Shown: piece by piece, positions 38,408 through 45,997 of the stretch
Layout: each line of letters begins with the position of its first letter
Position numbering within the stretch: the stretch's first letter is position 1
Assembly (NCBI RefSeq): GCF_000504085.1
Contig: NC_022792.1
Coordinates: forward strand, 1,206,001-1,270,000
Reading direction: 5' to 3'
Length of the DNA stretch: 64,000 nt
DNA from: Pseudothermotoga elfii DSM 9442 = NBRC 107921
GTDB taxonomy: Bacteria; Thermotogota; Thermotogae; Thermotogales; DSM-5069
The notes under the pieces: model-generated
Told to the model about the DNA's origin: nothing
Databases searched by the model: none
Seen by the model: only the letters and a program-made list of their open reading frames with translations
Made by a program: the position numbers and the translations under genes

Positions 38408-39490
38408 GTGATAGTTATAAACGGAAAATTTCTTCTTCAAAACATAACAGGCACGCAACGTGTAGCATTCGAACTTCTGAAAAAGATGGACGAATATTAC
38501 AGCCATTTCAATGATAAGATAGTAGTTGCAGTTCCCAATAGAGAAAAAATTCCTGAAAATTTGTGCTTGAAAAACATCTTATTGATTCCAATAGGCAATC
38601 TTAAAGGATCTTTATGGGAGCATATAAATCTTGCAAGATTTGTACAAAAAAACGATGCAATCTGTTTCTCGTTCTCAGGTGCCTTTCCATTGTTTGTGAA
38701 AAGAGGGGTTTATTATTTGCATGATATTCATCCTATCCAATATAAGCAATACTTCTCAAGAAGATATAGCATATATCAAAAAATCATTGTCAATCATGTC
38801 TCAAAAGCTAAAGATATATTCGTTTTGACTAACTCTGAACATACTAAGTTAAACATACTGCGGTGGTTTCCGTCCTTAAAAGAGAGAATTTCCATAGTAT
38901 ATCCTGGTTGGGAACATACAAAGCGATACAACTTAAGTGATGAAGTTTGCGTAAAATGGGGAGTTAAGAAACATCAATATTACGTGGTCTTAGCCACTTT
39001 AACAAAACATAAAAATCTTGAAATAGTATTGAAAGTTGCCTCTGAAGAGAAGGATAAGATATTTGTGATTATTGGCCAAAAGCCAAGTAATCAAGTCTTA
39101 AGATCTTTGAATTTACAGGTAAATACTATCGATCAAAAAAATATCATTTTTACAAATTATATAAATGATGAAGGGGTATTTTCACTTATTAAATATGCAA
39201 AGGCAGTCATAGTTCCTTCTATTTTCGAGGGTTTTGGATTGCCAATATTGGAAAGTTTGTCACTACAAACACCCGTGATAGCCTCTAAAATAGAGGCTTT
39301 TCAAGAATTGTTCTCTGATGTTGTTACATTCTTTGATCCATTCAATGTATCAAGCTTAAAAGAAGCACTCGAGAATTTAAAATTCGATGAAGATAAAGCC
39401 AAAAATCTTCTCGAAAAATACTCATGGGAAAGAGCTATTTTATCTCTAATAAAGGTATACAAAATTATGAGAGAGCACAATTATTTCTGA
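38408..39490 (+). CDS. Glycosyltransferase, GT4 family
   Basis: A 360-residue GT-B enzyme opening with VINGKFLLQNITGTQRVAFE, a pattern of mannosyl/fucosyl transferases in polysaccharide clusters. Donor-site block is PSIFEGFGLPILESLSLQTPV. GTG start with GGAGGTG upstream. More AT-rich than the gene before it. Confidence 0.9.
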   Translation: MIVINGKFLLQNITGTQRVAFELLKKMDEYYSHFNDKIVVAVPNREKIPENLCLKNILLIPIGNLKGSLWEHINLARFVQKNDAICFSFSGAFPLFVKRGVYYLHDIHPIQYKQYFSRRYSIYQKIIVNHVSKAKDIFVLTNSEHTKLNILRWFPSLKERISIVYPGWEHTKRYNLSDEVCVKWGVKKHQYYVVLATLTKHKNLEIVLKVASEEKDKIFVIIGQKPSNQVLRSLNLQVNTIDQKNIIFTNYINDEGVFSLIKYAKAVIVPSIFEGFGLPILESLSLQTPVIASKIEAFQELFSDVVTFFDPFNVSSLKEALENLKFDEDKAKNLLEKYSWERAILSLIKVYKIMREHNYF

Positions 39491-43197: not shown

Positions 43198-43213
43198 GAG
43201 CACCCGGGTGTTC
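43198..43213. promoter_or_regulatory. Near-perfect palindrome upstream of DUF1659
   Basis: GAGCACCCGGGTGTTC, 7 of 8 pairs symmetric, GC-rich in an AT-rich context, in the leader of the DUF1659 gene. Just upstream (minus strand) is GTATACTATATAGT, which holds a -10-like TATACT but no clear -35; an alternative sigma factor is conceivable. Confidence 0.45.
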
Positions 43214-43261
43214 TTCCCACTATATAGTATACGAATGAATACGTTATGTAGAATACCCCTT

Positions 43262-43431
43262 CCTTTGAACATCACGGTAAAAATAACGCTTTTCTGGAAG
43301 AAACTCTTTATTCAAGCCTGTCTTGGAACTTAGTTAAGGCTAATGAAGGACAGTAATGTGTTTGTTCTTTATTCATGCCTGTTTCAGCAAACGTACCAAT
43401 CTGGTTAAAATAAAATGTTGTTGGGGATAAC
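43262..43431 (+). repeat. 170-bp direct repeat, copy 1
   Basis: The stretch from CCTTTGAACATCAC to TTGGGGATAACA matches 44551-44720 at roughly 85% by eye, in the same orientation. Longest shared runs include TGGAACTTAGTTAAGGCTAA and TGTTTCAGCAAACGTACCAA. No coding potential is apparent. It occupies most of the 470-bp gap 43173-43642. Confidence 0.85.
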
Positions 43432-43590
43432 ACCAGTAGGGGTAAAAAATAAAAATCTTGAGTATAGGCTTTCTGAACCTGGAAAGATATATTTTGTATG
43501 ATAGAACCTTTTAGTGAATTTCATTGAAGTGACTCTTTATTTTCAGGGGGTTAATGAGATGTTCAAGAGACAAAACATAATCCATATTTG

Positions 43591-43618
43591 TTGTCTAAGG
43601 TACTGAATATGGTATGAT
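43591..43618 (+). promoter_or_regulatory. Promoter of PIN module 1
   Basis: TTGTCT (43591-43596), 16 bp, TATGAT (43613-43618), 24 bases before the antitoxin start. Confidence 0.6.
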
Positions 43619-43642
43619 TAAAAGTAGGATATAGGAGGTGAT

Positions 43643-43933
43643 ATGATGCGTGCAATACGTTATGTAAAAAGTAAAGAAATACGTTCCAACCCTGCTATTT
43701 TGTGGAAAGAAAATGAAACCATCATTACTTCAAATGGAAAGCCTATAGCAATTGTTATTCGTATTGAAAACGATCTTGATATAGAAAGTAATTTAGCCGC
43801 ATTTAGGCAGGTAAAAGCCATGAGAGCAGTTGAAGAAATGAGACTTATTTCAAAACAAAAAAATTTGGATAAACTCAGTGATAAAGAAATAGAAGAGATA
43901 ATCGATGAGGTGCGAAATGAAGGTAGTCGTTGA
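43643..43933 (+). CDS. Antitoxin of PIN module 1 (Phd/RelB-like)
   Basis: A 96-residue protein. The N-terminal YVKSKEIRSNPAILWKENET and VTSNGKPIAIVIRIE-type strand (TSNGKPIAIVIRIE) form a Phd-like DNA-binding fold; the charged C-terminal helix would bind the toxin. Homologous to 54016-54276. GGAGGTGAT precedes ATGATG; the first ATG is used here. Its end overlaps the toxin gene by 17 bases. Confidence 0.8.
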   Translation: MMRAIRYVKSKEIRSNPAILWKENETIITSNGKPIAIVIRIENDLDIESNLAAFRQVKAMRAVEEMRLISKQKNLDKLSDKEIEEIIDEVRNEGSR

Positions 43934-44315
43934 TACTAATGTAATAGTTTCTGGAATATTGAAACCAGGAGGGCTTCCTGCTAAAGTTTTGAATTTAGTG
44001 CTTTCAGGAAAACTATTGATATGTGCTGACAGTAGGATAATTAACGAGTATAGAAATGTGTTGTTGAGAGATAAGTTTGGATTTCCAAAAAAGTTAGTTG
44101 ATGATTTAATTGACTTCATTGAATCCACGGCGATTTTAGTGTCTCCACCGCCGGTTTTGCTGGATTTAATAGATGAAGGTGATTTGCCATTTATAGAAGT
44201 AGCTTTATTCACAAACGTGCCAATAATTACTGGAAACGAAAAGCATTTTCAAGCAATTGATGGTTTAACAATTTATACCCCTAATGACTTTTTAAAATTA
44301 TACAAATCAAGATAA
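43917..44315 (+). CDS. PIN-domain toxin 1 (COG1569 type)
   Basis: A 132-residue PIN ribonuclease. Acidic residues are in VVDTNVIVSG (D6), in the ADSRIINEY segment and in DEGDLPFIEVAL. It belongs to the 'PIN family toxin component' group (TIGR00305-like). The ATG at 43917 with GAGG upstream was preferred to a start at 43905. Homologue at 53609-54013. Confidence 0.85.
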   Translation: MKVVVDTNVIVSGILKPGGLPAKVLNLVLSGKLLICADSRIINEYRNVLLRDKFGFPKKLVDDLIDFIESTAILVSPPPVLLDLIDEGDLPFIEVALFTNVPIITGNEKHFQAIDGLTIYTPNDFLKLYKSR

Positions 44316-44355
44316 ACAGACTCTGCAATTACGCTCTATGTTGGCAAGTTTTAAA

Positions 44356-44532
44356 GTCAACTACCCACCGCTTGTAAAGGCGGAGGCTTGAAAAGCCTTA
44401 GTTGACTACCCTCAGCCACACAAGTGGCTACGTTAGACAGGTCATGACACCCTGGAATGCTGCTCAAGTTCCAGGCTCTGTCGTGCAGGTCTAAACAGTC
44501 CTGAGGGGTGCGGCAGACATAACAAACCTGCC
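44356..44532 (-). ncRNA. Structured omegaRNA-like element, IS605 right end, no tnpB
   Basis: On the minus strand the segment ends in a right-end structure: GTCAACTA (44399-44406) pairs with TAGTTGAC (44356-44363), enclosing AGGCTT/AAGCCT and CCGC/GCGG hairpins. Upstream stems, by plus-strand position: CCCTCAG 44409-44415 with CTGAGGG 44501-44507; AGCCAC/GTGGCT 44414-44429; TTAGAC 44433-44438 with GTCTAA 44489-44494; CCTGGAA 44451-44457 with TTCCAGG 44469-44475. The tail matches the AAGCCTC...GGGTAGTT layout of the element at 24464-24587. No transposase or nuclease gene is attached. Confidence 0.65.
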
Positions 44533-44550
44533 TAAGATTGGGGATGAGTA

Positions 44551-44720
44551 CCTTTGAATATCACAGTAAAAATGATGTTTTTCTGGAAAAAATCCTTTGT
44601 TCAAGCTTGTTCTGGAACTTAGTTAAGGCTAATGAAAGATAATGAGGTATTTGTTCTTTATTCATGCCTGTTTCAGCAAACGTACCAAGTTGGTTAAAAT
44701 AAAATGTCGTTGGGAATAAC
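44551..44720 (+). repeat. 170-bp direct repeat, copy 2
   Basis: Matches 43262-43431. Together the copies flank the PIN module and the structured RNA. The remaining 44721-44800 holds a weak TAGAAT box and the ribosome site of the next gene. Confidence 0.85.
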
Positions 44721-44800
44721 GCAAAAAGTTCATTTCTGTGTTATCTATGTGGTAGAATTTCTTTGGTAAATTTAATTCAAGTCTTGTTGGGGAGAAAAAG

Positions 44801-45997
44801 ATGAAAATTTTAGTGATCACAAATCTTGCACCAACCAATAGTAACCCTATGGCCGGAATATTTGTGGTGAAAAGGCTTGAGCAATTTACAAAATCTGATG
44901 TTGATTATTCTGCCGTATCGCTTGGGCTTGAAGACAACTGGGCCATAAAACTGGCAAGGAAAATACTGAAGAAAAATCCTGGCACACCTCTGAATCGAAT
45001 GGGAAAAGTGGAACTTACACCAATTTTGATTCGGCGCAACCTTTCAAAGGCAATTTTGTTCAAAACAGGCTTGATATCTTACTATGGATTAATAAAAAAA
45101 TATTCAAATAGAATAAAATCACTCCTTGAAGTCCCCAAATTCGACCTCATACATGCTCATGGTATGTACTCAATTCCTGCTGGAGAGATTGCATATCTTT
45201 TGGCAAAAGAATACAATAAGCCTTTTGTAATAACATTGCACGGTAGTGATGTGAATTTGCTAATGCCAAAAAGAAAAGAAAGATACATTGCGATCCTTGA
45301 AAACGCTTCAAAATGTATCTTTGTGAGTAAAGCACTTCTTGAGAAGGCAAAATCTTTTGGATACTCTGGAAAAAACGCGGTTGTGATACCAAACGGGTAT
45401 GATCCAGAGGTCTTTAAACCAATGGACAAGGATCATGTGAGAAAGGCACTTGGAATATACAGAGAAAACACACATTACGTTGGTTTTGTTGGAAATCTCA
45501 TACCCATAAAGAGGGCAGATAAACTGCCTGAGATATTCAGAAAAATAGCTAAAGAACTTCCAAACATCAAATTTCTAATCGTCGGAGATGGAGCGCTAAG
45601 AGATAAAATACTAAAAGAGATGAAAGGACTTGACGTTGTTTTTGCTGGAAGAGTGCCACAGCTGGAAGTTGCAAAGTACATGAACGCAATGGATGTGATG
45701 GTTCTTCCAAGCAGAAATGAGGGATGGCCATGTGTTGTGCTGGAAGCCCAGGCCTGTGGAACGTGTGTTGTTGGAAGCAGTAGTGGTGGAATTCCAGAAG
45801 CAATAGGCTTTGAAGAATACGTGGTGAAAGAGGGAGAAAACTTCGAAGAGAGGTTTGCCAGAAAAGTGGTTGATGTTCTGAAGAAAGGCTATGATAGAAA
45901 CAGGTTGATAGAAAGAGCAAAAGGATTTACGTGGGAAGAGATAGTGAAAAGGGAGATAAAGATTTATAGTTTGATAAGGGGGAAAAATAAAAAATGA
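44801..45997 (+). CDS. Glycosyltransferase, GT4 family
   Basis: A 398-residue GT-B enzyme starting KILVITNLAPTNSNPMAGIF, acceptor domain with DLIHAHGMYSIPAGEIAYLL and VITLHGSDVNLLMP, donor domain with VGNLIPIKRADKLPEIFRKI and EX7E block PSRNEGWPCVVLEAQACGTC. Most like capsule/teichuronic-type GT4 enzymes. Starts after GGGGAG; its stop overlaps the next ATG by four bases. Confidence 0.93.
   Translation: MKILVITNLAPTNSNPMAGIFVVKRLEQFTKSDVDYSAVSLGLEDNWAIKLARKILKKNPGTPLNRMGKVELTPILIRRNLSKAILFKTGLISYYGLIKKYSNRIKSLLEVPKFDLIHAHGMYSIPAGEIAYLLAKEYNKPFVITLHGSDVNLLMPKRKERYIAILENASKCIFVSKALLEKAKSFGYSGKNAVVIPNGYDPEVFKPMDKDHVRKALGIYRENTHYVGFVGNLIPIKRADKLPEIFRKIAKELPNIKFLIVGDGALRDKILKEMKGLDVVFAGRVPQLEVAKYMNAMDVMVLPSRNEGWPCVVLEAQACGTCVVGSSSGGIPEAIGFEEYVVKEGENFEERFARKVVDVLKKGYDRNRLIERAKGFTWEEIVKREIKIYSLIRGKNKK

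Follow-up and report, generated by a model that had tools for sequence, protein, structure and literature searches.

A HEARO RNA on the plus strand beside a PIN-domain gene

The window, that is the whole stretch of DNA analysed here, comprises 64,000 nt of the genome of Pseudothermotoga elfii DSM 9442. A structured element lies within it just after a PIN module, flanked on either side by a 170-bp repeat (the two copies are 87% identical), a setting that the original prediction had described correctly. The features of the locus are as follows:

43262-43431, unstranded: 170-bp repeat, copy 1, a conserved intergenic leader (sequence comparison)
43643-43933, plus strand: short ORF upstream of the PIN gene, a neighbour only, with a weak RelB-like antitoxin match (PF18506, 17.5 bits, below the cut-off of 27)
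43905-44315, plus strand: PIN-domain toxin gene, a neighbour only (PF13470, 60.3 bits; TIGR00305, 46.7 bits against a cut-off of 29.15)
44340-44355, plus strand: putative 16-nt guide in the left flank of the element (by analogy with IscB omegaRNA, PMC9640706)
44356-44554, plus strand: HEARO RNA/IscB omegaRNA scaffold, an orphan copy with its 3′ end truncated at a junction (Rfam RF02033, plus-strand fold)
44356-44406, plus strand: 5′ hairpin domain (helix 1), closed by GTCAACTA/TAGTTGAC (Rfam model, covariation in alignment A1)
44432-44536, plus strand: long-range stem of GTTAGACAGGT (44432-44442) with ACCTGCCTAAG (44526-44536), with two broken pairs in this copy
44513-44514, plus strand: position of a 9-nt gap by which the CAGTG block is lost (alignment A1)
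44551-44554, unstranded: CCTT junction, where the 3′ end of HEARO coincides with the beginning of the second repeat, with no right end here
44551-44720, unstranded: second copy of the 170-bp repeat, ahead of the glycosyltransferase gene at 44801 (sequence comparison)

The Rfam scan that had been proposed as a check, run over the whole window, returned one HEARO RNA (RF02033), matched on the plus strand at 44356-44556 with 117.7 bits (curated threshold, 83 bits) and spanning all 211 positions of the model (1-211). The current name of HEARO is IscB omegaRNA (excerpt of PMC9755519), and the omegaRNA-like nature originally proposed for the element is thus borne out. The plus-strand fold of 44356-44556 reaches -77.5 kcal/mol with a z-score of -4.30 and none of 200 shuffles as good, compared with a z-score of -1.57 for the minus-strand fold of 44356-44532, which 12 of 200 shuffles equalled. 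The element is therefore a real structured RNA whose strand had been wrongly assigned: structure above chance, as predicted, lies on the plus strand and is weak on the minus strand that had been named, and Rfam, the fold and the orientation of iscB in sister copies all place the RNA on the plus strand. Raw stem density is no guide to strand, and the first reading took the complement.

The pairs GTCAACTA (44356-44363)/TAGTTGAC (44399-44406) and CCCTCAG/CTGAGGG are indeed present in the sequence. Of the interval first proposed, 44356-44532, the start is right; the element extends to about 44554, and the 3′ end had therefore been set ∼22 nt short. The description as an orphan also holds, there being no iscB beside the window copy. 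A second similar element (“element 1”, given no coordinates) found no counterpart, as the window contains one HEARO only, also at E-values up to 1, and a blastn search of the window with the element as query gave only the self match and matches of 11-18 nt. The sole other Rfam entry at E-values up to 1, SmY at 39279-39352 on the minus strand (24.6 bits against a threshold of 39), was taken as chance.

Sister copies, iscB remnants and miniature elements

The P. elfii genome (2.17 Mb, one contig) carries seven HEARO copies, all above threshold at 117.7-154.6 bits, the window copy scoring lowest; we name the six sisters (c20, c639, c828, c1159, c1317 and c1828) by their positions in kb. An iscB gene lies downstream on the same strand in three of the seven (c20, c828 and c1828), and the genome holds three RRXRR-domain matches, none of full length. 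The c1828 gene is without the HNH stretch and that of c20 has a large internal deletion. The c828 IscB retains RuvC and HNH and scores 314.1 bits on NCBIfam guided_IscB (cut-off 175), with a stop ahead of its C-terminal end; the C-terminal part of OgeuIscB is the TAM-reading domain (excerpt of PMC9640706). No intact iscB is present among the copies found in this genome. Right-end sequence was matched at the six other copies and at C1:1998256, with none at the window copy, and in each of these seven cases the element stops directly before ATGAA.

Two further loci carry iscB-like remnants. At C1:1998256-1998332, the 3′ part of an iscB and a right end, without any HEARO match, stand directly before the ATGAAA of a glycosyltransferase gene. 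At C1:1480500-1483500, IS200/IS605 tnpA and tnpB genes adjoin a half-length IscB-like frame that retains HNH and the last RuvC part only and differs from the HEARO-linked iscB copies; the TnpA encoded there looks intact.

Beyond this genome, HEARO was recovered in four of the 41 genomes searched (our own, G004, G018 and G034) and in none of the three others of the genus, under stricter filters with which weak matches are lost. The iscB of G034 is open over 438 aa and scores 351.7 bits on guided_IscB. Similar DNA in plasmids was limited to partial matches in two records, from Anoxybacillus and Acidithiobacillus, and none was found in phages; one scan of genome contigs for iscB relatives gave a single locus, in an uncultured Methanobrevibacter, at 46% identity.

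Three of the sisters are miniatures: c1317 (C1:1317608, plus strand), c639 (C1:639111, minus strand) and c1159 (C1:1159043, plus strand). Each consists of the omegaRNA, a 28-codon open frame and the right end, measuring 331-336 nt to the measured point with ∼4 nt more to the element end (about 335-340 nt). The 28-codon frame is made of the first iscB codons fused in frame to the last, and the frame is kept in all three. One internal deletion is common to them, and this suggests that the miniature form spread as such. All are inserted directly before the ATGAA of the next gene, and the TGA of the 28-codon frame overlaps an ATG (TATGATGA) in three of three. For c1159 the empty site is present in relatives G001 and G002, reading straight into ATGAAAA; for c1317 no clean reading of an empty site was obtained. 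Immediately upstream of c1317 is a cobalamin riboswitch (RF00174, 102.7 bits; L008:1269-1436), and this miniature thus sits between the riboswitch and the next gene.

These miniatures before start codons are the more interesting part of the system, the window element being another member of the known HEARO/IscB omegaRNA family and an ordinary copy save for its rearranged setting. With the frame kept in three of three, they offer a simple test of whether the insertions still permit translation of the host genes. Searches of one open-access library returned no publication on such elements, and we make no claim of novelty.

Covariation in the family and damage in the window copy

We aligned 12 HEARO RNAs (alignment A1: seven from P. 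elfii, three from G034 and one each from G004 and G018) out of 13 matches, leaving out G004:C143 (32.3 bits, below cut-off). With the Rfam stems placed on A1, 85.2% of cells are paired. Changes on both sides occur at 23 pairs, a number reached by none of 500 shuffles and compared with 1-8 for slid structures, the structure tested being that of the Rfam model itself, a choice that gives it an advantage over its slid counterparts. Helix 9 gives the clearest covariation, with both sides changed at seven of its nine pairs. The covariation across the 12 RNAs therefore indicates that the HEARO family is under structural selection.

The stems are not all intact in the window copy, which forms 47 of the 66 model pairs (11 mismatched, 8 gapped), the fewest among the 12; the six sisters form 50-58, the G034 copies 60-61, and those of G004 and G018 53 and 54, respectively. 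Its long-range stem contains A-C and G-G mismatches, and CAGTG (helix 10), kept in the 11 other aligned copies, is absent from this one alone. At columns of A1 (without G004) that are otherwise invariant, the window copy deviates 10 times (five substitutions and five gaps), compared with 0-4 times for the other P. elfii copies and six for G018. Helix 9 is broken in this copy and likewise in c1159, c1828 and c828, two of which are among the three with iscB, and a broken helix 9 alone is therefore no mark of a dead copy. In these four of the seven P. elfii copies a 5′ strand of one type is combined with a 3′ strand (CAGAC) resembling the one in G034a, and the breakage looks as if it came from recombination. 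A separate descent for the window copy is suggested by a 4-nt stretch that recurs in similar form in G034, G004 and G018 and in none of its six sisters; a tree built from all 12 RNAs gave the window copy no resolved position among its sisters.

The original prediction spoke of a functional RNA, “now or recently”. For the family this stands, given the covariation; for the window copy “recently” fits better than “now”, because of the unique loss of a conserved block, the two broken pairs in the long-range stem, the missing right end and the lack of an intact iscB among those found.

The junction and the reading of the window copy

The likeness of the window copy to its sisters extends as far as ACCTT (44550-44554), and CCTT (44551-44554) is already the beginning of the second 170-bp repeat, so that 44356-44554 is followed by this repeat instead of an iscB or a right end, neither of which is found there. 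The CCTT common to RNA and repeat therefore points to deletion or recombination at this short homology. An empty site for the window copy was not found: in G014 and G032 the region after the PIN gene is unaligned at the insertion point, and the G018 stretch used in this comparison is non-homologous. G017, a relative from another family of the order, has the upstream operon, one repeat and the glycosyltransferase gene together, without PIN module or HEARO, and the PIN module occurs outside the setting of the window in G014, G018, G032 and G024.

In the P. elfii genome the 170-bp repeat occurs only twice. G002 has it at two places ∼16.6 kb apart, and G008 has it ahead of a glycosyltransferase gene and a second time on contig C4. 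This stretch, conserved in G017, G002 and G008, is non-coding and has glycosyltransferase genes on one side and, on the other, a small operon encoded on the minus strand (sigma-70-like, DUF2922, DUF1659), and it is possible that it serves as the shared leader of such loci. The two repeats in the window look like the leaders of two related loci, the first of which may have lost its gene.

In IscB omegaRNA a guide of 16-17 nt precedes the scaffold and its TAM-proximal pairing matters; the nexus pseudoknot is also required, and the TAM is recognised by the TAM-interacting domain (excerpt of PMC9640706). The 16 nt before the window scaffold would by this analogy be the guide. The TAM here is probably ATGA, judging from the ATGAA that follows the right end in all six other P. 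elfii copies. Work by Weinberg in 2009 and Altae-Tran in 2021 reportedly describes ATGA/GTGA sites and standalone omegaRNAs. The putative guide followed by ATGA had no other match in the genome at up to three mismatches, and self-targeting beyond its own locus was rejected at the same limit. Promoter-like sites in 43200-44900 are about as many as chance would give (five; chance mean, 4.9), and the interval from the PIN stop codon to the element contains none.

We consider it highly probable that the window element is a stranded, immobile and decaying orphan omegaRNA relic left by a deletion, and not an active standalone guide. In an intact IscB element, by analogy, the omegaRNA would have at its 5′ end a guide that copies the left flank, and would lead IscB to a re-emptied insertion site (the target and then the TAM), where cutting may help the element to stay in place. 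At the window locus, a deletion or recombination across the common CCTT would have joined the omegaRNA 3′ end to the 170-bp leader repeat and removed whatever part of iscB and the right end lay downstream; the copy has also lost a conserved stem strand, and with these losses presumably its mobility and activity. Against this reading, the fold of the window copy is still strong and its Rfam score well above threshold, helix 9 is broken in three sisters too, and the c828 IscB keeps both nuclease regions. Taken together, the genome offers what reads as a clear case of the death of IscB elements, with iscB eroding, miniature forms of the omegaRNA spreading and a single omegaRNA left behind with its right end gone.

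It is unlikely that the window copy is instead a working standalone omegaRNA, perhaps made by read-through transcription of the PIN operon, that directs the c828 or an incoming IscB in trans to the sites its guide matches. There are published standalone omegaRNAs that act with IscB in trans (quoted in an excerpt of PMC9581776), and such a role would draw on a scaffold that spans the whole model and folds well and on the RuvC and HNH regions of c828; however, the CAGTG block is lost, the long-range stem has two mismatches, the c828 stop precedes the end that reads the TAM in OgeuIscB, no further genomic target was found, and the interval between PIN stop and element has no promoter-like site. 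We would hold it very improbable that an omegaRNA cut loose from its transposon now acts as a fixed standalone guide beside the PIN toxin module, using the truncated c828 IscB, with the miniatures as translational leaders of host genes through the TATGATGA overlap. It is also very improbable that the window copy is a still mobile miniature like its three sisters of ∼335-340 nt, moved in trans by an IS200/IS605 TnpA: an intact-looking TnpA is available at 1481 kb and such forms have probably spread, given both ends and one common deletion in three siblings, but the right end matched elsewhere is missing here and the 170-bp repeat follows the scaffold directly. A minus-strand RNA of another kind can be dismissed, since complementary stems fold to some extent on either strand whereas Rfam matches the plus strand only, the plus fold is far the better one and the iscB genes of the sisters lie downstream in plus orientation.

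As a HEARO RNA, the stranded relic is typical in matching the entire covariance model above the curated threshold and in belonging to a set in which three sister copies share one orientation relative to iscB; it differs in having no adjacent iscB, no CAGTG block and a 3′ end fused to an unrelated repeat. It resembles the standalone omegaRNAs that act in trans (excerpt of PMC9581776) in being without an effector gene of its own, and departs from them in its damaged scaffold and in a genome where no intact iscB was found. An IscB-type miniature mobile element has both ends, the right one before ATGA, and the window copy is without the right one; c1317, c639 and c1159 resemble miniature, internally deleted IS derivatives in keeping both ends with one common internal deletion, and differ from the window copy in having a right end, together with a complete omegaRNA and the in-frame iscB remnant of 28 codons.
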